From Akkermansiaceae bacterium (lineage in GTDB: Bacteria > Verrucomicrobiota > Verrucomicrobiia > Verrucomicrobiales > Akkermansiaceae): a DNA stretch of 41,692 nucleotides. The stretch lies in the NCBI GenBank assembly GCA_029252325.1, contig JAQXBQ010000209.1:1-41692 (forward strand), written 5' to 3'. Shown piece after piece: positions 14,394 through 26,349 of this stretch. The notes below the pieces were generated by a model. The model was not told where the DNA came from. It did not search any database and saw nothing but the letters and a program-made list of their open reading frames with translations. Both the position numbers and the translations under genes were made by a program. Numbering within the stretch: position 1 is the first letter of the stretch; each line of letters begins with the position of its first letter.

Positions 14394-15269
14394 TCAGTCA
14401 CTTTCTGTATCGGGCTCATCTATCGCATCCATCTCATTGAGCTTGGCCAAGTATGCATTGCGTGGCACTGGCTTGAGAGGGCGCTCTTGCTCATGCATCA
14501 TCGCTTGCACCTGTTCTCCACTACCAGTGATGAGTTCTTCGATGATTTCTGCCTCGGGTAGGTTTTTCCAATATTTCTTGGGCATCTCCGTCTGCATCAT
14601 TTTGATCTTCAGCCGCGCGGGATTGAAGATACTACGGTAATAGCCTAGCCAAAGCTCTTCGAGCTCATCGCTATCTGGAGCGACTGATTTCTCTACACCG
14701 TCAGTGTAGGTGATACGACTACCGTCCCAATGCACACACTCGTCAGGAGTAAGAATCGACCAGTTCATACCAGCAAAGCGTTTACGAAAAAACGGTGTAT
14801 TGATGCGCACGATTAGATGATCTGGCTCAAACCACGCTACGAAGTTTTCCTTATCACTCTGCTCAGTCTTGACCTCTCGAAATCGGACAAAGGCACGCAT
14901 CTTATGAATATCGCGACTCACGGTGGCTCGCATGCGCTCTAGAGTGCGTAATCTGCTATCGGTTTGGTTACTAAGGATACGACGATCGTTGCCGCAGCTC
15001 ATTTCCCAAAGTATTTGGTAAAGCAATGCCCACTGCTTACCTGAGCGATGTGCCGCTACAGTCTCAGCAAGTCGCACAAAGGTCTTGGGCACTTTCAGAC
15101 GTGGCGCGTCTGGGGGTAGCACAGGCAGCTCATCGGCAAACAATAGCCCATCACCTTCATCATTCTTAGCACTCCATAGAACATCGGACGGGTGGCACTG
15201 CTCTGCTAGCAATGCACGTGCGGCATTACGCCATGCTTGAAAATGAGGCTCTATGGATATGGTTTTCAT
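14394..15269 (-). CDS. TIGR03915/DUF4130-type putative DNA metabolism protein
   Basis: The 291-residue protein matches the family that accompanies the TIGR03916 radical SAM protein. Typical segments are FQAWRNAARALL near the start, DIHKMRAFVRFREV in the middle and the C-terminal MPKKYWKNLPEAEII. In some bacteria this domain is fused to a uracil-DNA-glycosylase domain; here it ends soon after the DUF4130 part with an acidic tail, so there is no glycosylase. Function is unknown; a nucleic-acid role is assumed from partners. It follows the radical SAM gene by 17 bases in the same direction. Confidence 0.88.
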   Translation of the reverse strand: MKTISIEPHFQAWRNAARALLAEQCHPSDVLWSAKNDEGDGLLFADELPVLPPDAPRLKVPKTFVRLAETVAAHRSGKQWALLYQILWEMSCGNDRRILSNQTDSRLRTLERMRATVSRDIHKMRAFVRFREVKTEQSDKENFVAWFEPDHLIVRINTPFFRKRFAGMNWSILTPDECVHWDGSRITYTDGVEKSVAPDSDELEELWLGYYRSIFNPARLKIKMMQTEMPKKYWKNLPEAEIIEELITGSGEQVQAMMHEQERPLKPVPRNAYLAKLNEMDAIDEPDTESD

Positions 15270-15286
15270 CGCAGTTTGCTAATGAC

Positions 15287-16609
15287 CTAGAATTCCCCAT
15301 GCAAGGCTTCTACCCCCGCTTGCTTAACCATGTTTTTTTCTACAGTGGTAGTAACTGGCTGCGCAGTAAAATCCATCTCGAGCTGTGTCGGCGGTGGAGC
15401 GAACTTGGCTCGCAACTCACTGCTTGATAGCTCAAGACGTGCTGGATGGTGATTGGTGCAGATCATAAACGGCATGGTTTTTTTCAAATTCACCCGGAGC
15501 TTAATCAAATCCTCGAGAGTGACAGCATGGTGACGCCGTAAGCGAACAATCCTCTTCGCATTCCTCACTCCCAGACCGGGTATGCGATAAAGCATTTCCA
15601 GTGGGGAGCGGTTGACATCGATAGGAAAGGTGTGCCGATTACGCAGCGCCCACGACAGCTTCGGGTCGATGTCTAAATCTAGGTTAGGAGATTCGGCACT
15701 GGTCAGCTCATCAACACCATAGTGATAAAAACGCATCAACCAGTCAGCTTGATAAAGTCGATGCTCTCGAACCAGTGGGGGTGACTTAAGCGGCAGTATC
15801 ACCGAAGGTTCTGGAATGGGGCTGAATGCCGAATAATAAACACGCCTGAGTTTGAAATTACCATACAGGTCACCTGCCCGAGCGAGAAAGTCACTATCAT
15901 AAGAACCGTCAGCGCCGACGATCATTTGAGTGCTTTGTCCTGTCGCAAAGGTCGGCTTTTTGGCCTTGGATTTTCTTTTTCTGAGCTCTTTACGATCAGC
16001 AATGGTCTCAGTGATGCGAGCATTGATGGTGCTCATGGCTTCACGAGTGCGGTGAACGTTTTTCTCAGGGGCTAGTTTCTTGAGGCTTTCTTGCTTCGGC
16101 AGCTCAACATTGATGCTCAGGCGGTCAGCGTATTTGCCAGCCTCTGCGATCAATTCTGGTGAAGCCTCAGGAATCGTTTTCAAATGAATGTAACCTCGGA
16201 AGTGGTGCTTTTCGCGCAAGAGCTTAGCCACCCTGATGACGAGCTCCATGGTATAATCAGCGCTACGCACAATGCCGGAGCTCAAGAATAGCCCTTCGAT
16301 ATAGTTTCTTTTGTAGAACGATAAAGTCAGCTCAACCACCTCCTCAGGAGTGAACCTCGCTCTCTGAACATTACTGGAGCGTCGGTTGATGCAGTAGTGG
16401 CAATCGTAAAGGCAGACGTTGGTCAGTAGCACCTTCAGTAAGGAAATGCAGCGGCCATCAGGAGCGTATGAGTGACAAATGCCAGCGCCCCCTGTCGAAC
16501 CAACGCCTTTGCCCGCTGTTGAGTCTTTCCTTGCCCCACCTGAGCTTGCGCAGGAGGCATCGTATTTAGCTGCATCAGCCAGTATTTCGAGCTTCTCAAG
16601 AGTATTCAT
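15287..16609 (-). CDS. putative DNA modification/repair radical SAM protein (TIGR03916)
   Basis: From the ATG at 16609 the protein is 440 residues. I chose this start because the family begins with MNTLEKLEILADAAKYDASC; an upstream in-frame ATG at 16660 would add 17 residues that do not fit. The radical SAM motif is CLYDCHYC (Cys66, Cys70, Cys73), with further Cys at 20, 45 and 54 in the conserved N-terminus. A helix-hairpin-helix with IPGLGVRNAKRI lies at about 340-372 and suggests DNA binding. The reaction is not known. It forms an operon with the TIGR03915 gene and has a strong extended -10 promoter in the divergent region. Confidence 0.9.
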   Translation of the reverse strand: MNTLEKLEILADAAKYDASCASSGGARKDSTAGKGVGSTGGAGICHSYAPDGRCISLLKVLLTNVCLYDCHYCINRRSSNVQRARFTPEEVVELTLSFYKRNYIEGLFLSSGIVRSADYTMELVIRVAKLLREKHHFRGYIHLKTIPEASPELIAEAGKYADRLSINVELPKQESLKKLAPEKNVHRTREAMSTINARITETIADRKELRKRKSKAKKPTFATGQSTQMIVGADGSYDSDFLARAGDLYGNFKLRRVYYSAFSPIPEPSVILPLKSPPLVREHRLYQADWLMRFYHYGVDELTSAESPNLDLDIDPKLSWALRNRHTFPIDVNRSPLEMLYRIPGLGVRNAKRIVRLRRHHAVTLEDLIKLRVNLKKTMPFMICTNHHPARLELSSSELRAKFAPPPTQLEMDFTAQPVTTTVEKNMVKQAGVEALHGEF

Positions 16610-16615
16610 GCGAAC

Positions 16616-16667
16616 ATGGTAATCTAATGAACACTTCAGGCAAGGCAAATTATAACACAATTACCAT
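16616..16667. repeat. separated 8-bp inverted repeat flanking the radical SAM promoter
   Basis: ATGGTAAT (16616-16623) and ATTACCAT (16660-16667) are exact inverted repeats with centres 44 bases apart, about four helical turns. They flank the extended -10 element, one arm upstream and one in the untranslated leader. They could be paired operator sites, possibly for the divergently encoded TetR-like protein. The match may still be accidental. Confidence 0.4.
16649..16657 (-). promoter_or_regulatory. extended -10 promoter of the radical SAM operon
   Basis: On the minus strand TGTTATAAT (16649-16657) is a perfect TATAAT with the extended TG motif, about 40 bases before the ATG at 16609. No good -35 is seen, as is usual for extended -10 promoters. 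One arm of an inverted repeat lies just upstream of it (16660-16667). Confidence 0.6.
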
Positions 16668-16704
16668 TTGACTGGCTATGCCACGGGTTCTAAATAGGTA
16701 TGTA

Positions 16705-17358
16705 ATGGCTAAATCGACTTCAAAAAAGAACTCCAAGCACGAGCTAGAAAAGCAATATTGGCACGTGTTACTCACTCAAGGAAAAAGGCCCACTAGCGTA
16801 TACTCCTTTGCCCAAGAGATAGGCATGGAGGAGGCCGAGTTCTATAAACATGCTGCCAGCTTCGATGCCCTCGAGTCGGGCTACTGGGATGGCCTCATAG
16901 AAGAGACAATAAAGGTACTCCATGAGGATGACGATTACTCAGACTACCCAGGAGATCAGAAAATACTCGCATTCTTCTTCACTTTCTTCGCCCATGCCCA
17001 GAAAAACAGGTCACGTCTGGTCGAGTTCTTTCCGCGCCCCGGGTGCAGTAAAACCCTAAAGCCCATGAGGCACCGCTTCATTGAGTTTGCCCAAGTGATC
17101 ATCAACCAGGGAATTGAAGACGGGTCCGTTGCTGACCGCAAAAAGGTAAGCGAAAAATACCCTGAGCTACTTTTCGAACAGTTTCGCAGTATCATTGAAT
17201 TTCACCGCAAGGATCAGTCCCCCGATTTTCAAGACACTGATGCCTTGATCGAAAAGAGTGTCAGATTCAGCGCCGACGTTGCTCGCTCAGGCACTCTAGA
17301 TTCAGCATTTGACCTTGGTAGATTTTTGCTGCGTCGCTTCACCCTCTCGGGCTCATAG
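16705..17358 (+). CDS. TetR-fold protein paired with an ABC1 kinase
   Basis: From the ATG at 16705 the protein is 217 residues. This start has AGG at 16696-16698, six bases upstream; an in-frame ATG at 16678 adds nine residues without a ribosome site. Residues about 25-65 (SVYSFAQEIGMEEAEFYKHA) match a TetR helix-turn-helix, and the rest is helical like a TetR C-terminal ligand domain. The gene is five bases from the ABC1 kinase gene. It could be a transcription regulator, or, like mitochondrial COQ9 which has the TetR fold, a lipid-binding partner of the kinase. Confidence 0.7.
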   Translation: MAKSTSKKNSKHELEKQYWHVLLTQGKRPTSVYSFAQEIGMEEAEFYKHAASFDALESGYWDGLIEETIKVLHEDDDYSDYPGDQKILAFFFTFFAHAQKNRSRLVEFFPRPGCSKTLKPMRHRFIEFAQVIINQGIEDGSVADRKKVSEKYPELLFEQFRSIIEFHRKDQSPDFQDTDALIEKSVRFSADVARSGTLDSAFDLGRFLLRRFTLSGS

Positions 17359-17363
17359 GCTCT

Positions 17364-18680
17364 ATGAAAGAGCAGACCAAAATTCCAAAAAATAAGATCA
17401 GTCGTGCCAGCAAGCTTGCCCAAACGGGTATTAAGGTTGGTGTCAGCTATCTCAAATACAAGGCCCAGAAAACAATCACCGGCAAGGATGACAAGACGGC
17501 ATTTCATGAGGTTACGGCGCGTCAAACCTACGAAACGTTCAGCAAGCTCAAGGGTGGCCCACTGAAGCTCGCGCAGATGCTCAGCATGGATCGCAACATG
17601 GTGCCCGACCAATACGCTGATCAATTTTCCCAAGCTCAATACAACGCTCCTCCCCTCACCTACCCTCTAGTAGTGAACACATTCATGAAAGAGCTGGGCA
17701 AGCGACCTAATGAGGTCTTCGAGTCCTTCACGACCAAGGCCGCATCTGGAGCCTCTATTGGCCAAGTACATAAGGCTGAGATCAAAGGGGATAAATATGC
17801 AGTCAAAATTCAATATCCAGGGGTGGCTGACAGTCTCAAATCTGATTTGGCCATCGTCAAGCCCATCGCCACAAGACTCTTTCAAATTGATTCAAAGGCG
17901 ATCGAGCCTTACATGAAAGAAGTAGAGGAACGTCTACTTGAGGAGACCGACTACCATCTTGAACTGGAGCGATCCCAAGACCTCGCTGCCAAGTCGAAGC
18001 ACCTACCCTATACTCGCTTTCCTGAGTATTTCCCTGAGCTCAGCAGCAAACGCATCCTAACGATGGAGTGGATTCATGGTGTGCAGCTCGACACCTTCGC
18101 TGAGTCTGATGCACCCCAGGAGCTGAAGCAAAAACTTGCCCAAGCCTTGTGGGATTTCTATCACCACCAAATTCATGAGCTCCGTTTGTTTCATGCTGAC
18201 CCGCATCCAGGTAATTTCAAAGTTCACGATGATGAATTATGGGTATTAGACTTCGGCTGTACGAAGTCTCTAGAGGATAACTTCTACAGGGACTACTTCG
18301 CTCTGATGGACCCCAAGGTGCTGGACGATGACGCCACATTCCGAAGTGCCCTAACTAAGATTGGCCTGCTTCTCGACACCGACAAACCTCACGAGAAAGA
18401 TACACTTGCAGCTCTATTCAGGGAGTCTGTCGAGCTCCTCTCTCGCCCCTTCAAGCACGGCACTTTCGACTTTGGTGATCAGGATTATTTCGATGAGCTT
18501 GCGAAGTTCGGCGAAGATGCTCGCCTCGACAAGGAACTAAGCAAGCTAAGCACGTCACGCGGTAATGCCCACGCCCTCTACCTAAACCGGACCTACTTCG
18601 GCTTGTATCACCTCGTCGGCAGCCTGAACGCGACGATCACGACTACCTTGCCTGATTACGCAGCAGCAGATCAAGCCTGA
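17364..18680 (+). CDS. ABC1/AarF/UbiB-family atypical kinase
   Basis: The 438-residue protein has the family's motifs in order: the KxGQ-like KLKGGPLKLAQ (61-71), the Ala-rich loop ASGASIGQVHKA (127-138), the nucleotide-binding lysine in YAVKIQYPG (145-153), EETDYHLELE (193-202), the catalytic loop HADPHPGNF (277-285) and metal-binding LDFGCTK (295-301). Relatives (UbiB, COQ8) are ATPases or kinases supporting isoprenoid-quinone synthesis at the membrane. The strict KxGQ sequence is altered here. It follows the TetR-fold gene by five bases and is followed after 47 bases by an SDR gene. Confidence 0.9.
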   Translation: MKEQTKIPKNKISRASKLAQTGIKVGVSYLKYKAQKTITGKDDKTAFHEVTARQTYETFSKLKGGPLKLAQMLSMDRNMVPDQYADQFSQAQYNAPPLTYPLVVNTFMKELGKRPNEVFESFTTKAASGASIGQVHKAEIKGDKYAVKIQYPGVADSLKSDLAIVKPIATRLFQIDSKAIEPYMKEVEERLLEETDYHLELERSQDLAAKSKHLPYTRFPEYFPELSSKRILTMEWIHGVQLDTFAESDAPQELKQKLAQALWDFYHHQIHELRLFHADPHPGNFKVHDDELWVLDFGCTKSLEDNFYRDYFALMDPKVLDDDATFRSALTKIGLLLDTDKPHEKDTLAALFRESVELLSRPFKHGTFDFGDQDYFDELAKFGEDARLDKELSKLSTSRGNAHALYLNRTYFGLYHLVGSLNATITTTLPDYAAADQA

Positions 18681-18727: not shown

Positions 18728-19417
18728 ATGAAAACAATTCTCATCATCGGCGGATCACATGGCATTTCCCAATGCCTTGCCAACAGACTTCAGAGCAGCG
18801 GCATTCAAACACTCACTGCCAGCCGCACTGGCAGCGCCCATTGTAATGGTGCTCAACACCAGATCTTCGACGCTGCAAACCCAACGGCACTCAACATCCC
18901 TGAACAGCTTGATGGCATCGTTTACGCGCCAGGCTCTATCACACTAAAACCTTTCCATCGTCTGAGTGAGGAAGACATCTTGACGGAGTTTAAGCTAAAT
19001 GCCCTCGGTGCCGCTCAAGTCATTCAGCAATGCCTGCCCGCACTCAAAAAATCTCCACGTGCGTCGGTAGTACTTTTTTCAACCGTAGCGGTGCAAACTG
19101 GCCTACCATTCCACGCGTCCATTGCCATGGCCAAGGGAGCCATTGAGGGTCTCACCCGTTCACTGGCAGCGGAGTTGTCTCCCGGCATACGAGTCAATGC
19201 GATTGCCCCATCCCTCACTGACACCCCCCTTGCAGAAAACCTCATCAACAGTGAAGCAAAGCGCCAAGCATCCGCTGATCGCCACCCGTTGAAGGCCATC
19301 GGGGAAGCTGATGACATCGCAGCATTGGCCGAGTTTCTTGTATCCGATGAATCCAAATTCATCACAGGACAGATCATCCAAGCCGATGGAGGCATGGGCA
19401 GTGTGCGCACTTTCTAA
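18728..19417 (+). CDS. short-chain dehydrogenase/reductase-like protein lacking the catalytic Tyr
   Basis: The 229-residue Rossmann-fold protein has an N-terminal GGSHGIS (8-14), Asn91 in KLNALGA, Ser118 in LFSTVAV and Lys136. The usual YxxxK tyrosine is Ile132 in the segment HASIAMAKGA, so the canonical proton donor is absent. The C-terminal IAPSLTDTPLA and ITGQIIQADGG segments are typical SDR. Some SDR subfamilies I recall share the HASIA-type segment, so it is probably a distinct clade rather than damage. Role unknown. It is downstream of the ABC1 kinase and converges on the CIA30 gene with only 13 bases between them. Confidence 0.85.
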   Translation: MKTILIIGGSHGISQCLANRLQSSGIQTLTASRTGSAHCNGAQHQIFDAANPTALNIPEQLDGIVYAPGSITLKPFHRLSEEDILTEFKLNALGAAQVIQQCLPALKKSPRASVVLFSTVAVQTGLPFHASIAMAKGAIEGLTRSLAAELSPGIRVNAIAPSLTDTPLAENLINSEAKRQASADRHPLKAIGEADDIAALAEFLVSDESKFITGQIIQADGGMGSVRTF

Positions 19418-19430
19418 ACAAGGGCACCCT

Positions 19431-20048
19431 CTACTTCCAGGCAGAAATAGATTTGATCTCTAGGGCAAATTCTCCAGCCTTTTTGTCTGCTAGAATGATA
19501 CCGAGCCCCTTGATTTCGGCAGGATTAAAGTTCCGATTCAACTTCCTACCTCTCCAACTCGCCTTCATTGAAGAGAAAGGTATTTGCAACTTCACCCACT
19601 TGTCTTTCGTTGTCTCAAAATCAGCAGTGAAAGATACCGAGGAGCGTAGGAACTTCTCATCCGTAGTCGCCCGCAACCCATAAACCCTCCCGTCTCCTCT
19701 CACGTGGATTTCAATCCCCTTCCAATCACGCAGATCCCAGCGCTGACCACTGATTCTAAACGAGGAGAATCCACCGTTATTTCTAAGCGATAGAAGCCCT
19801 TTAAAAAGCAAGGTGTTGTCTTGAGTCAGCTTGATATTCCCTTGAGAAAGCCCACCCATCACGCCGTCATTGACAACACTCACGGAGTGATTTTCATCTT
19901 TGTTTGCGAAGTCAATTAGCATAGTGGTTTTTGTTTCTTTCCCCTGTGGCTGGTCGCCTTGCTGAGCCATCAGCACCGTTGCGGAAACTAACCCCAGAAT
20001 CACAGCGGCTGAGAATTGTTTTATCTGCTTATACTTTCTCGTATTCAT
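19431..20048 (-). CDS. CIA30-domain protein, exported
   Basis: The 205-residue protein begins with a signal peptide (hydrophobic 13-26, AQ after VLMAQ) followed by a CIA30 (complex I intermediate-associated protein 30) jelly-roll domain, with VNDGVMGGLSQG, GGFSSFRI and LRDWKGIEIHVRGDGR as hallmarks. In mitochondria CIA30 helps complex I assembly, but bacterial versions are uncharacterised and here the protein is periplasmic. It overlaps the cryptochrome-like gene by four bases, so the two are translationally linked. Confidence 0.9.
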   Translation of the reverse strand: MNTRKYKQIKQFSAAVILGLVSATVLMAQQGDQPQGKETKTTMLIDFANKDENHSVSVVNDGVMGGLSQGNIKLTQDNTLLFKGLLSLRNNGGFSSFRISGQRWDLRDWKGIEIHVRGDGRVYGLRATTDEKFLRSSVSFTADFETTKDKWVKLQIPFSSMKASWRGRKLNRNFNPAEIKGLGIILADKKAGEFALEIKSISAWK

Positions 20049-21580
20049 AGAGGTAATTCAATGGATTTGTCCTCCGTCTCGCACTGCCACCCCGAGTGGA
20101 CCTTATCGCGGTACGCAGCTGCATTATCTCTATGAGACTGGAGCTTTTCAGGAGCCATTTTATCCAACTGCCTAGTCATCATACCTAACCTCGGTTGCTT
20201 TTGATAAAACTCACGGTTGGAGTCAATAAAGTCCCAGAATAAACCATCCCAAATATCACACCAGTCACCCTTGGGGTAATCCGACATCTTACGAATATAA
20301 TTTGACCCACAGACATAAGGCTTGGTGACAAACTTACCACCGTCAGCAAACTGGCTCATGCCATAGACGTTGGGCACCATCACCCAATCGTATGCATCGA
20401 CAAACATCTCCATGAACCAGCGGTAGACCGCAGTGGGCTTGACGTGGCAAAGTTGGAAAATAACACCCAGCACCATGAGCCTGTCAATGTGATGACAATA
20501 GCCCGTTTTGAGTAACTCACTGATGGCACGGTCCACGGGCGGCAAGCCACTTCGACCTGTGTAGAAACACTTCGGCAGCTGATGGCTGAAGCCCCAGAAG
20601 TTCGACACTCGCATCTCGCGTCCGTGCAGCTCATACATACAGCGCATAAACTCACGCCAGCCGATAATCTGCCGAACAAAACCCTCAAGTGAGTTGAGCG
20701 GAACATCATGATTTTTTGCGTAGTCGATAGCTCGCCGCACCACATCACTGGGATTGAGTAATCCTATGTTCATCATCGGCGTAAGTAACGAATGCTGCTG
20801 AGTCGCATAACGTGTCGATATCGCATCCTCATAGTCACCAAAAAGCTCAAAGCGCTCCTTAAGAAATACATCCAACCAAGCCTCTGCCTCGGCATGGGTT
20901 CTGGGTAATCCGATACTGCACTCACCCCATGCATTCGGAAAATGCTCTTCCACCCAAGCATTGGTATCAGCACTGAAGGGCTCGAGCTTAGGTAGCACAG
21001 GCTCGACATACTTCTTGGGTAGCTTTTTACGATTGAGCTCATCGTAGCTCCAAGCGCCACCTTCAGGCTTACCATCATCATCCATCAAGATACCCATACG
21101 CTTTCTCTGCGCTTGGTAGAAATGCGCCATAAAAGGTTTCTTCTTGCCCTCCAGGTATCCTCGCCACCAATCCTCAGGCGTGATAAAATTGGGAGTTTCG
21201 TACCAGATGACTTGAATACCATTCCCCTCACACCATTGCTGCAGACGGCGGCTGATCAAATCATCCACCACCTTGGCCAGATGAATCACCTTGAGCTTAC
21301 TTGGCAGCTTGCCTGCAAGTTGATCGAGCATGTCACAGCTATGTGTTTGCCCACCAGCAAGCTCGACAACATCAGCCTTGAATCCAGCCGCCAGCAAACC
21401 ATTAATGTAGTGCGTGCCAGCCTCCTTGAGCAAGGCCTGCCTGCGAGCATGATGCTCAAGTGGCCACTTGGTGTCACAGCCGTATAGCAATGGCTCCTCC
21501 ATTAAGAATACCGGGCGCTTTTGGTCGAGGGCTGGGTGCTCCTTGTAGAGCTGATGTGGGTAGACTAGCGAAATTTCCAT
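20045..21580 (-). CDS. cryptochrome/photolyase-related protein (DPRP/FeS-BCP class, cluster ligands reduced)
   Basis: The 511-residue protein has the N-terminal antenna-type Rossmann domain (about 1-170) and the FAD-binding helical domain with RQIIGWREFMR (303-313), GYCHHIDRLMVLG (360-372), DAYDWVMVPNVYGMSQFADGG (395-415) and NYIRKMSDY (427-435). These are features of the bacterial 6-4 photolyase/cryptochrome class that carries FAD and, normally, a [4Fe-4S] cluster. The loop after KMSDY lacks the usual paired cysteines and reads PKGDWCDIWD, leaving one clear Cys (441). It may therefore lack the cluster and be a photoreceptor rather than a repair enzyme. It lies between SOUL and CIA30 genes. 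Confidence 0.85.
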   Translation of the reverse strand: MEISLVYPHQLYKEHPALDQKRPVFLMEEPLLYGCDTKWPLEHHARRQALLKEAGTHYINGLLAAGFKADVVELAGGQTHSCDMLDQLAGKLPSKLKVIHLAKVVDDLISRRLQQWCEGNGIQVIWYETPNFITPEDWWRGYLEGKKKPFMAHFYQAQRKRMGILMDDDGKPEGGAWSYDELNRKKLPKKYVEPVLPKLEPFSADTNAWVEEHFPNAWGECSIGLPRTHAEAEAWLDVFLKERFELFGDYEDAISTRYATQQHSLLTPMMNIGLLNPSDVVRRAIDYAKNHDVPLNSLEGFVRQIIGWREFMRCMYELHGREMRVSNFWGFSHQLPKCFYTGRSGLPPVDRAISELLKTGYCHHIDRLMVLGVIFQLCHVKPTAVYRWFMEMFVDAYDWVMVPNVYGMSQFADGGKFVTKPYVCGSNYIRKMSDYPKGDWCDIWDGLFWDFIDSNREFYQKQPRLGMMTRQLDKMAPEKLQSHRDNAAAYRDKVHSGWQCETEDKSIELPL

Positions 21581-21624
21581 TATAAGATAAGTCTTGAGAT
21601 TGAAGGACAGCTTGAGATCATTAA

Positions 21625-22287
21625 TCAGGGATTCGGCACGGCTAGTTTGGGGGCCAGATCAGGTTTCACCTTAGCCGGCAACACCAATAACATTTCCCAG
21701 GTTTTCTTGGCATCTGCTACCCCCGGACCGTTATAGCCCATCACCCGATAATCGTTACTCTTCAGCCCTTTTTCTTGCTTGGCTTTATCGATTGCCACTT
21801 TCGCCTTCTTCATTGTCACCTTGTTTCTATCACCCTGCCAGGTGTAGCTCAGTGCCCGCATGTTTGGCACACTTCTTACTTCGATTTTCTTACCATCATT
21901 GCCAAGTTTTCCAACTTCATCATTTTGATAGAGAAACCCCATCGACTTCATCCCAAGCTTATCCCCCCCCTTTTGCTTCATACCCATTTCAACAGGTGAA
22001 GTCATGGGTATGTCTTGCCGCTTAATGTGGCGAAATAAACGCCAAAAAGCAAAACCACTGCTGAAAGAATCAGTATAAGCAGCGCGGTAGGCTGGAAACT
22101 CTTTCAGGGTAACCTTGTTATACGGCCCTGGTCTTGGCCAACCCTTAGGCAACGGGGCCTCAGCCACATACTCGGGCTTAGCTTCAAGATCAGGTGATCC
22201 ATGAGCATCGTCAGCTTGAGAAAAATAGAGTGCCAAAACAACAAGTGGCGGCACGCTTATACATAGAAATTTCATCCTGCGGGTCAT
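21625..22287 (-). CDS. SOUL-family haem-binding protein, exported
   Basis: The 220-residue protein has an N-terminal hydrophobic segment (about 6-23, signal or anchor) and a SOUL domain marked by FPAYRAAYTDSFSSGFAFWRLFRHI, DIPMTSPVEM and FLYQ. SOUL proteins bind haem or tetrapyrroles and are implicated in haem handling. An ATG four codons later (22275) is a possible start. It is 44 bases upstream of the cryptochrome-like gene and probably heads that operon. Confidence 0.88.
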   Translation of the reverse strand: MTRRMKFLCISVPPLVVLALYFSQADDAHGSPDLEAKPEYVAEAPLPKGWPRPGPYNKVTLKEFPAYRAAYTDSFSSGFAFWRLFRHIKRQDIPMTSPVEMGMKQKGGDKLGMKSMGFLYQNDEVGKLGNDGKKIEVRSVPNMRALSYTWQGDRNKVTMKKAKVAIDKAKQEKGLKSNDYRVMGYNGPGVADAKKTWEMLLVLPAKVKPDLAPKLAVPNP

Positions 22288-22432
22288 TCAATAATACTTA
22301 CAACCTTCGCGTGTAAGCACAATCCGTCAATGCCTATTTCTCTCAGGCAGGGCACAACGTTGCTAGCTAGGACTCGCCAAACTGTCGCATCGCCAGCACT
22401 GGTCTTTGATGCGCCAAGATTTTTGCCTATAA

Positions 22433-24061: not shown

Positions 24062-25015
24062 TCATCTATTTCCAACTTTATCAGACGATTCTTCAAGGGC
24101 TGGGGGCTCATCTTTGAACCATTTCCATACCACACCATCAACCGGGCCAAGCAGCCAAGCCAGCAGAAACAGCACCCCACCGCAGACCACCACAGAGGCT
24201 GCCATATTTGAATTAAACCACACGTGCAAATACAAGCCCCCCACCGCCGAAATGAGAGCATGCAATGCGGCAATCGCCAACATGACCTTGAGTCGGTAAG
24301 TGCATAAGTAGGCCGCAGCCCCCGGAAGGATAAGCAAAGCAATCACTAAGATGGCGCCTACCGCCTGAAATGCGGCAACGACAATAAACGAAACCACAAA
24401 CATCATTCCGTAATGAATCACTGCCGGTCGATAACCATACGATGCCGCTAAATCAGCATCGAATGAGCTCAGCATCATCACCCGGAAGAACAGGCCCAGT
24501 AGCAACATCGTAAAAACAGCCACTCCAGCCATAACTAAGACTGGCATCGGCACCAGTGAGCCGAAGAGTAATACTCGATCTTCCTCAAGCAGCAAGCCTA
24601 GGCGACCATGCAAAACACACTCCAGATCAAGATCAACATTCTTACCCAGTAATAGCTCCATCAACACAACACCGAGTGCAAAGAGAGCCGTAAATGAAAT
24701 ACCAGTGGCAGCATCCTGCTTCACCCTCGTCCACTTGTGAATCAACTCAATGATCACAGTGGATGCCAAGCCTGCCAGACCTGCACCGACGATCAGCCAA
24801 GGTGAGGCCAAATCTCCAGTAATAAAAAAAGCAATAACGACACCAGGAAATACGCTGTGACTGATCGCATCGCCCGTCAGAGCCATCCGTCGCAGGATCA
24901 AGAACGAGCCCATTTGAGAGCAAGGTAGCGCAACAAAAAAAGCCATCAAAATCAACCATAGTGCTCCCAATCCAAGCACATCCCATGGCAGGGTTATGTA
25001 TTCCAGAGTCTTCAT
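24062..25015 (-). CDS. manganese/zinc-type ABC transporter permease (second permease)
   Basis: The 317-residue integral membrane protein of the ZnuB/MntB/TroD family has eight or so helices. Family segments include RRMALTGDAISHSVFPGVV (about 42-60), VKQDAATGISFTALFALGVVL and AFQAVGAILVIALLILPGAAA. It probably forms a heterodimeric channel with the other permease (25012-26349), whose stop overlaps its start by four bases. Metal cannot be fixed from the permease alone. Confidence 0.88.
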   Translation of the reverse strand: MKTLEYITLPWDVLGLGALWLILMAFFVALPCSQMGSFLILRRMALTGDAISHSVFPGVVIAFFITGDLASPWLIVGAGLAGLASTVIIELIHKWTRVKQDAATGISFTALFALGVVLMELLLGKNVDLDLECVLHGRLGLLLEEDRVLLFGSLVPMPVLVMAGVAVFTMLLLGLFFRVMMLSSFDADLAASYGYRPAVIHYGMMFVVSFIVVAAFQAVGAILVIALLILPGAAAYLCTYRLKVMLAIAALHALISAVGGLYLHVWFNSNMAASVVVCGGVLFLLAWLLGPVDGVVWKWFKDEPPALEESSDKVGNR

Positions 25016-26349
25016 GATGGCACAACGGAGGACTGAGTAACTAAGTGAGCTGGTTGAGGGATAGGTTTACCGTGAGGGTCAAGCTCGGGAAAATCAAGAT
25101 GCTGCTCTAGTTGACGAACAATGCCTGGTTCGAGGATATGTTCTATTTTTTCAGCATCCTCGTGCACATGATCTTCCGCATAATCAGCTTCGTTAGTCAG
25201 ATACAGCTCCCATAGGCGGTGATTTCGGACTATTTCCATCGCTCGCTTCCAGCCTAATCTGCTGAGGTGCAGCGAAACACCGTCCTCTGCCATTTCAATA
25301 AACCCACGACTCAAAAGCGCCTTACAATCTTTGTTTACTTTTTCTTCTGTTTGTCCCCGCTTGCGAGCCAGCATTAAGACACTCACCTCTTCATGGGCAA
25401 AGCCCTCTCCCTCGTGTATCTGGTAGATAGCTTTGAGCGTATTTTCTCTTCTGACACGCATCCCACGCCGGAGGGTGCGTGCTACCTTGGACAACACACC
25501 ATGGCGCGGAGCGAGGAGATAGATAATCCCAAAGAGCAGCGTGGCCGAGAGAGCTATAACAGGCCCTGTCGGCAAGCCATTGACCTCCGCCGAGACCAGG
25601 CCGCCCGAAATACCAGAAGCAACTCCGAACACCACTGATAAAATCAGCATGCGTTCAAATCGATCTGTCAAAAGATAAGCAGCAGCCGCAGGAGTGATCA
25701 ACATGGCTGACACCAGAACCACCCCGACCGCTTGCAAAGCCACCACAACAGAGAACGTCAACAGGAAGTAAAAGACGCCATTGAGTATTTTAACGGGATA
25801 ACCAAGCCCTCGTGAAAAGCCCTCATCAAAACTCATCATCAACAAAGGACGCCTGAGAAAAAACATCGTCACCACAAGAATCAAAGTCGTGACCAACATC
25901 ATTCGCAAATCACTCGCATCAATCGAACCAATATTACCGAAAAGAAAATTCATCACCCCGACCGTATCTTGTTGGTTTCTCGACTGCCACATGATGCCAA
26001 AGGCGAAGAATGTTGCCAAGACAATGCCCAGTGCTGCGTCGGACTTTAAGCGTGTGCTAAACATCATCAGACGCACCAGGCAAGCTCCTAACAAACCCGC
26101 GGCAGCAGCAAATAAAAAGATAACCCCCGGGCTACGTTCAGCGCTGTAAATCAAACCCGCTACAACACCAGGCAGCACTGCATGTGAGACAGCATCCCCC
26201 ATCAAGGCCACTCGTCGCAGCACAACAAAGCACCCCAGCAAACCACAACTAGCACCCAGCAATACTGCCGCCATGATGGCCTTACCACTACCACTACCGG
26301 GTATGAGCAAATCAATCATAGATGCTAAAAATGACACATCTTCAAACAT
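25012..26349 (-). CDS. manganese-type ABC permease fused to a DtxR/MntR-like metalloregulator domain
   Basis: Residues 1-280 are a ZnuB/MntB-type permease (LRRVALMGDAVSHAVLPGVV at 44-63). Residues 300-431 resemble a DtxR/MntR regulator: an HTH at 301-370, then RNHRLWELYL (His377), DAEKIEHIL (Glu400, Glu403, His404) and the family-typical ELDPHGKPIP (422-431). By memory alignment to B. subtilis MntR, the His77, Glu99, Glu102 and His103 ligands are kept, while Asp8 and Glu11 appear as Asn and Lys. Such fusions occur in some bacteria; whether the domain binds DNA or gates transport is unknown. It starts eight bases after the ATPase stop. Confidence 0.9.
   Translation of the reverse strand: MFEDVSFLASMIDLLIPGSGSGKAIMAAVLLGASCGLLGCFVVLRRVALMGDAVSHAVLPGVVAGLIYSAERSPGVIFLFAAAAGLLGACLVRLMMFSTRLKSDAALGIVLATFFAFGIMWQSRNQQDTVGVMNFLFGNIGSIDASDLRMMLVTTLILVVTMFFLRRPLLMMSFDEGFSRGLGYPVKILNGVFYFLLTFSVVVALQAVGVVLVSAMLITPAAAAYLLTDRFERMLILSVVFGVASGISGGLVSAEVNGLPTGPVIALSATLLFGIIYLLAPRHGVLSKVARTLRRGMRVRRENTLKAIYQIHEGEGFAHEEVSVLMLARKRGQTEEKVNKDCKALLSRGFIEMAEDGVSLHLSRLGWKRAMEIVRNHRLWELYLTNEADYAEDHVHEDAEKIEHILEPGIVRQLEQHLDFPELDPHGKPIPQPAHLVTQSSVVPS

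Follow-up and report, generated by a model that had tools for sequence, protein, structure and literature searches.

A SOUL-photolyase-CIA30 operon in an Akkermansiaceae bacterium: probable descent of a photoprotection unit from a CarH/LitR-type light regulon

CarH is defined by the Wx9EH motif together with a B12 motif, and its operator consists of tandem 11-bp repeats of the form nAnnTnnACAn (PMC8156234). The LitR region of Pseudomonas also holds photolyase and SDR genes (PMC8156234, PMC9758184). The SOUL proteins of animals bind porphyrins, and in Chlamydomonas singlet oxygen strongly induces SOUL1, SOUL2 and the fasciclin-like protein FAS2 in a SAK1-dependent manner; porphyrin binding was considered worth testing by the authors of that work (PMC4067076). 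In the photolyase PhrB, the iron-sulfur (Fe-S) cluster is held by the cysteines C350, C438, C441 and C454 (PMC3204975). Here, an operon encoding a SOUL-family protein, a PhrB-like photolyase and a CIA30 domain protein was analyzed in a stretch of 41,692 nucleotides from an Akkermansiaceae bacterium (assembly GCA_029252325.1, contig JAQXBQ010000209.1), which is referred to as the window at its full length.

We consider it probable (about 60%) that this operon is a photoprotection unit which descended from a CarH/LitR-type light regulon and whose switch was lost in the lineage of the window. This reading starts from what was found in the sequences, namely three closely spaced genes in a given order, the association with CarH in relatives, the operator-like repeats, and their absence from the draft genomes of the window's lineage. 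In the ancestor and in sister species, CarH in its dark state would repress the operon by binding to tandem 11-bp repeats upstream of SOUL, and light would release CarH so that SOUL, photolyase and CIA30 are made together. The photolyase would repair ultraviolet lesions, with a specificity that we infer, the SOUL protein at the envelope would most likely bind haem or porphyrins, which act as photosensitizers, and CIA30 would act at the envelope on some ligand. In the window subclade, the loss of both the CarH gene and the repeat would therefore leave the operon under other control, perhaps that of the neighboring TetR-type regulator, or constitutive. To our knowledge, the role of bacterial SOUL and CIA30 proteins has not been settled, and the link to a B12-photoreceptor regulon, the operator of which can be tested, provides a concrete physiological hypothesis for both.

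A sequence-only reading of this DNA had described three co-directional genes, the last two overlapping by 4 bp, with an SDR gene convergent to them, and the open reading frames (ORFs) were found at precisely those positions (shared bases 20045-20048). Gene order was compared by eye among 195 genomes of the family (genomes are cited below by G numbers and loci by L numbers), of which 116 contained the photolyase domain DPRP, 67 contained CIA30 and 90 contained SOUL; the SOUL counts are low because the search missed the window's own SOUL gene, and weak SOULs elsewhere may be missed too. Within the window's genus, 6 of 14 genomes had SOUL next to the photolyase gene (G000, G060, G075, G089, G081 and G097), and the full SOUL-photolyase-CIA30 triad was present in G000, G060, G075 and G097, whereas the contigs of G089 and G081 end before CIA30. 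The grouping thus exceeds chance, because adjacency occurs in six genomes of one genus and CIA30 follows wherever the contig is long enough to show it, in four of the six. Neither the adjacency nor the triad was seen in the other genera of the family sample; in G027, of another genus, CIA30 is convergent with an adjoining DPRP gene of the Fe-S type. Conservation beyond close relatives was therefore borne out for the gene set, which recurs elsewhere as described below, but not for the exact gene order, which is confined to the window's genus. A neighbor census within 6 kb around the photolyase gene, made on 50 photolyase-bearing stretches of the 61 clustered, counted SDR (at least 45% identity; 22 stretches), a flavin-reductase-like protein (15), radical-SAM and TIGR03915 proteins (9 each), a FAD_binding_7-only protein (8), ADP-ribosylglycohydrolase (7), SOUL (6) and CIA30 (5).

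The same clustering exposed a protein with MerR and B12-binding domains beside CIA30 (L045-L048). In a search with one such protein, CarH-like genes were found at 21 places in 20 of the 195 genomes, and 12 of the 21 had a divergent gene for CIA30 (8; G052, G035, G104, G012, G073, G032, G151 and G187) or SOUL (4; G163, G121, G049 and G037) less than 1.2 kb away. In G163 and G121 (L103 and L104), the CarH gene faces the genes fasciclin-SOUL-photolyase, and in G049 (L105) it faces SOUL-photolyase; in G163 the gene of a CIA30-fasciclin fusion follows directly, and in G121 such a fusion is found past a 703-aa ORF. The photolyases of these three loci all carry PF00875 and PF03441 and are canonical photolyases of a kind other than the window's. 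Because the photolyase kind differs and the SOULs are only ~22% identical to that of the window, a similar gene set was assembled elsewhere from non-orthologous parts. The Wx9EH motif was present in 26 of the 27 CarH-like proteins, and 24 of 29 (two having been added from the SOUL scan below) combined it with a strictly spaced B12 motif, in which Q stood in place of E at the first position in 21 of the 24. CIA30 was commoner in the CarH-bearing genomes (15/20 versus 52/175, Fisher p 1.1e-4, uncorrected for relatedness).

Beyond the family sample, 80 SOUL loci were kept of 106 found in a species-level collection with a query built from CarH-adjacent SOULs. By profile matching, CarH adjoined SOUL or nearly so in L140, L145, L150, L152, L206 and L217, and a photolyase stood beside SOUL in L140, L145, L150 and L214; L140, L145, L150 and L152 are family genomes already counted, and L179, with a weak 51-bit regulator match, was left out. 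The CarH-SOUL interval of L206 (Verrucomicrobiia) contained three repeat matches. In the alphaproteobacterial L217, a MerR and B12-binding protein with Wx9EH overlaps SOUL and there is no such repeat, and in L214, also alphaproteobacterial, the photolyase gene lies 3 bp before SOUL. The link between SOUL and light recurs, yet most of the SOUL genes listed stand without CarH or photolyase. Plasmids gave 9 SOUL and 6 CIA30 records, and in the 6 of 15 regions examined (one unannotated) no CarH or photolyase was found by annotation or by profiles.

Operator-like repeats were present at the CarH loci. A de novo search of 15 CarH intergenic regions returned direct repeats of GTCTA/TGTCT at a period of 11 bp as the top result (7 and 6 regions), and in a dyad search of the intergenic regions only direct repeats rose above the threshold. 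The reverse complement of the published operator fits TGTCTAnnT. With overlapping matches counted separately, a scan at 11/12 (or 15/18) matching positions gave 37 matches in 409 kb of CarH loci versus 13 in 1.02 Mb of other loci, and the repeat was present at 19 of the 27 CarH loci. Among the 13, the matches in G097 and G081 are located ~60 bp upstream of the SOUL operon, CarH being on another contig in both genomes; the background at 11/12 was 4 matches in 485 kb. The exact pattern TGTCWAN5TGTCTA (W, A or T) was found 14 times in 9 of 22 chosen genomes, and 11 of the 14 were at CarH, SOUL or CIA30 promoters, the others being located before an ECF sigma gene belonging to the same cluster (G121), before a sigma-70 gene (G073) and at an exported-looking protein (G014). 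Seven of the 14 were outside the 15 discovery regions (G097, G081, two in G014, G037:C56, G073 and the sigma gene of G121); the repeat of G037:C56 is at CarH, and G014 has a repeat upstream of CIA30 with CarH on another contig.

Two of these matches deserve separate mention. The exact repeat of G121 (L104, 12596-13236) lies just upstream of the ECF sigma-factor gene, which adjoins DUF2867 and the CIA30-fasciclin fusion, and hints at a cascade from CarH to a sigma factor. The exact repeat of G073 (L221, 6007-6914) lies ~40 bp upstream of a sigma-70 gene with regions 1.2, 2, 3 and 4. An ECF sigma factor was also considered as a replacement for CarH and rejected, no close counterpart of the G121 sigma protein being found in a search of the window's genus (14 genomes; best match ~31% identity).

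No match to CarH was found at E<=1e-20 in the window genome and three close relatives (G000, G060, G075 and G089), which are draft genomes 84-96% complete and agree with one another. In the same four genomes no exact repeat was found, nor a relaxed repeat at the promoters tested, and no tandem 11-bp repeat was found upstream of the window operon or of its G060 and G089 orthologues. The sole B12-binding_2 place in the window genome is a 1278-aa frame, presumably MetH by its size. A CarH-type regulator (MerR and B12 domains, Wx9EH) is encoded in the sister genomes G097 and G081. In G025 (L094), of the same genus, TIGR03915-radical-SAM genes are divergent from CarH-TetR-ABC1-SDR, which is the island of the window with CarH present, and in G012 (L045) TIGR03915-radical-SAM-CIA30 genes are divergent from fasciclin-CarH-TetR-ABC1-DUF2867-SDR. 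The slot between the radical-SAM and TetR genes (at most 68 bp) is empty in the window, while it holds CarH in G025 and CIA30-fasciclin-CarH in G012; TetR-ABC1 follows downstream of a CarH-like gene in L045, L094 and L101. Quick unrooted trees placed G097 and G081 apart from the group of G000, G060, G075 and G089. Because of this separation and the occurrence of CarH in other members of the genus, loss of CarH in the window's subclade is the simplest reading. The CarH-like protein of G025 (L094, 8816-9784) keeps Wx9EH but not the histidine motif for the B12 ligand that its relatives have, and the weakening of the CarH system may for this reason be wider than the window subclade.

The light module proposed in the sequence-only reading thus gained indirect support from the CarH-like genes divergent from SOUL and CIA30 in relatives and from the CarH-type repeat that precedes the orthologous operon of two sister species, but a search of the window genome did not find the switch itself. 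The window subclade would be a natural case of a light-controlled operon seemingly without its former sensor and binding site.

Several observations weigh against descent from a CarH regulon. Neither SOUL (12/20 versus 78/175, p 0.24) nor DPRP (13/20 versus 103/175, p 0.64) was enriched in the CarH-bearing genomes, and among 288 genomes of the phylum outside the family, 9 had a CarH-like protein and none of these had CIA30 nearby. In the wide scan, CarH or a photolyase stood beside SOUL at 7 of the 80 loci despite the CarH-adjacent query, and the window-type SOUL is of another subfamily than the CarH-adjacent SOULs (~22% identity). The repeat was not seen at 8 of the 27 CarH loci, 6 of which are outside the family. 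The reversed exact pattern, used as a control, gave 7 matches against the 14, and W was set after TGTCAA had been seen in G097 and G081, so that the matches in both are not independent; these two genomes are close relatives, and their repeats count about once. No repeat was found before the DPRP gene of the CarH-bearing genomes G025, G012 and G009, or before the second CIA30 gene of G097 and G081. The absence of CarH rests on drafts, that of the window genome being 96% complete. A simple role in light is also at odds with a SOUL protein of Dinoroseobacter that has been tied to iron regulation (PMC8007024).

The Pfam scores of all three operon proteins exceeded the curated cut-offs. In the photolyase protein, DPRP scored 143 bits and FAD_binding_7 scored 36 bits, and the nearest solved chains were PhrB, CryB and CryPro (E 7e-72 to 4.6e-62, full-length alignment). 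At the positions of the four PhrB cysteines it has P, gap, gap and D, and the Fe-S loop is ~10 residues shorter than in PhrB; the cysteine loop is kept in all seven solved sequences with viewed alignments (eight matched). Among 62 aligned rows (61 genes, G027 appearing twice), 48 had none of the four cysteines, 13 had all and 1 was truncated, a share that is not a family estimate, the rows being non-random with 12 of the 13 Fe-S rows among the top Pfam scorers. The HHxxRL motif was retained in 60 of the 62. Judged by these residues, the window photolyase is not a bona fide FeS-BCP, because all four Fe-S cysteines are absent. For the flavin photoreceptor-like protein of the sequence-only reading, a repair role is likelier than light sensing, because the closest solved relatives are the PhrB, CryB and CryPro photolyases. 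The PhrB-like group without Fe-S cysteines (the window and 47 rows) is often found near SDR and a flavin-reductase-like gene, and a viral-contig scan with the photolyase as query gave one locus, L032 (5990-bp contig), which encodes a photolyase with 41% identity to the window protein.

The SOUL protein gave a weak Pfam match (PF04832, 31.3 bits against a cut-off of 27) and has a hydrophobic N-terminal segment. Its profile matched HEBP2/SOUL in the PDB (E 4.6e-5), and its AlphaFold2 model (mean pLDDT 75) resembles HEBP2/HEBP1; with this model, Foldseek returned HEBP2 at E 2.8e-6 with a TM of only ~0.5, BmrR/CtaZ-type ligand-binding folds scoring alike. Binding of haem or porphyrins is plausible from the family and the predicted fold. 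The CIA30 protein likewise has a hydrophobic N-terminus, export of both proteins being judged by inspection of their N-termini. Its profile matched solved CIA30-domain proteins named for complex I (E 2.6e-17), and there was a weak match to an endoglucanase H domain that we take to be a carbohydrate-binding module. Two kinds of CIA30 relatives are fused to fasciclin domains. On a Rhodobacteraceae plasmid (L137, 4618-7480), CIA30 is located beside glutathione peroxidase, DUF393, a tryptophan-rich sensory protein and SDR, which is another possible photo-oxidative setting for CIA30.

The census allows an ordinary DNA-repair neighborhood, the core of which would be photolyase, SDR, flavin-reductase-like and radical-SAM/TIGR03915 genes, with SOUL and CIA30 as functionally unrelated passengers in one subclade. 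The core genes are the recurrent neighbors rather than SOUL and CIA30, and the SOUL-photolyase-CIA30 order occurs in one subclade only, but SOUL and CIA30 are each found with CarH elsewhere, SOUL stands with a different photolyase in other genera, and a CarH-type repeat is located at the operon in two sister species. We regard this explanation as rather unlikely. The same family-wide neighbors, being putative repair and redox genes, speak against the photolyase homologue as a light-sensing cryptochrome controlling SOUL and CIA30, as do the conserved HHxxRL motif and the existence in relatives of a dedicated regulator, CarH. The cryptochrome name of its relative CryB and the loss of the Fe-S cysteines in the clade, which could mark a changed function, agree with sensing, and such control is nevertheless improbable.

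An operon for envelope haem handling or for the assembly of respiratory complex I, in which light is irrelevant, would agree with the family names, with the porphyrin binding of animal SOULs (PMC4067076) and with the profile match of CIA30 to proteins named for complex I. It is hardly to be expected given an exported-looking CIA30 that is fused to fasciclin in relatives and also matches endoglucanase H, and given the linkage to CarH. These features of CIA30 also count against the respiratory-complex role suggested in the sequence-only reading, for which no support was found (complex I genes were not searched). Photoprotection is favored over respiration because CarH stands beside SOUL and CIA30 in relatives.

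The photoprotection unit could be part of something wider, a proposal that is tentative and that we would sooner expect to fail than to hold. SOUL and CIA30/fasciclin proteins could together form an envelope system against photosensitization, in which SOUL captures porphyrins and CIA30/fasciclin guard the surface; this system would be B12-switched in Verrucomicrobiota, recur with other regulators in alphaproteobacteria and in the singlet-oxygen response of algae, and be decoupled from light sensing in the window lineage. Capture of free porphyrins by SOUL would prevent daylight from turning them into singlet-oxygen sources.

The features of the operon and of the adjoining island are collected in the table.

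Table. Positions of the operon and its surrounding features in the window
Feature	Position	Strand	Remarks
SOUL/HEBP-family protein, first operon gene	21625-22287	-	220 aa; Pfam PF04832
PhrB-like photolyase (DPRP + FAD_binding_7)	20045-21580	-	511 aa; Pfam and solved PhrB/CryB/CryPro chains
CIA30 domain protein, exported-looking	19431-20048	-	205 aa; Pfam PF08547, 145 bits
SDR oxidoreductase	18728-19417	+	convergent to operon
ABC1/AarF-family atypical kinase	17364-18680	+	Pfam PF03109, 177 bits
TetR-type regulator (TetR_C_23)	16678-17358	+	domain match
Gap between radical-SAM and TetR genes, 68 bp	16610-16677	strandless	radical-SAM start at ATG ending 16609; 17 bp if TTG start
Radical-SAM putative DNA-modification/repair protein TIGR03916	15287-16660	-	NCBIfam, 565 bits
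TIGR03915 putative DNA-repair protein (DUF4130), adjoins radical-SAM gene	14394-15269	-	NCBIfam, 207 bits
Operon upstream region	22288-22432	-	CarH-type 11-bp direct repeat not found

The island reads TIGR03915 and radical SAM on the reverse strand, TetR, ABC1 kinase and SDR on the forward strand, and CIA30, photolyase, SOUL and purH on the reverse strand. The gaps are 44 bp between SOUL and photolyase, 145 bp between SOUL and purH, and 13 bp between SDR and CIA30. A sigma-70-type scan listed no promoter on the operon strand within 22288-22432, and no short-spaced palindrome was common to both window promoters, only widely spaced arms being present near SOUL. Elsewhere in the family, too, the TIGR03915/TIGR03916 pair (14394-16660) is repeatedly located close to genes for photolyase, SDR or CarH. 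Farther away, an ABC-3 (Zn/Mn-type) permease gene (25012-26349, reverse strand) encodes a C-terminal fusion to Fe_dep_repr_C, the metal-binding/dimerization domain of DtxR-type repressors, and adjoins genes for another ABC-3 permease and for a ZnuA-like protein.

A partial open-access coverage of the literature gave no report joining SOUL or CIA30 to CarH (CIA30 and CarH were not searched as a pair), none was found on SOUL, photolyase and CIA30 or similar sets, and among the papers listed on CIA30, bacteria and light none dealt with bacterial CIA30, judged by title or abstract start. Among the described systems, the plant plastoglobule core (ABC1K, SOUL4 and a flavin reductase-related protein) resembles the island in combining ABC1 kinase and SOUL families under light stress (PMC12587418); it is no gene cluster, and the functional likeness would be one of analogy only. 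The Chlamydomonas SAK1 regulon likewise brings SOUL and fasciclin-like proteins together, but in a eukaryote, under another regulator and, in the excerpts of that paper, with no link to photolyase or CIA30 (PMC4067076). The window photolyase shares both Pfam domains and HHxxRL with the FeS-BCP (6-4) photolyases PhrB, CryB and CryPro and differs from them in the absent Fe-S cysteines and the shorter loop. The CarH/LitR systems (CarH of Myxococcus and Thermus, class II LitR of Pseudomonas) differ in that the neighbors in the window's relatives are SOUL, CIA30 and fasciclin, and in that the window has no detected regulator or repeat. In common with these systems, however, the relatives of the window have MerR and B12-binding regulators, most of them with Wx9EH, and 11-bp direct repeats.

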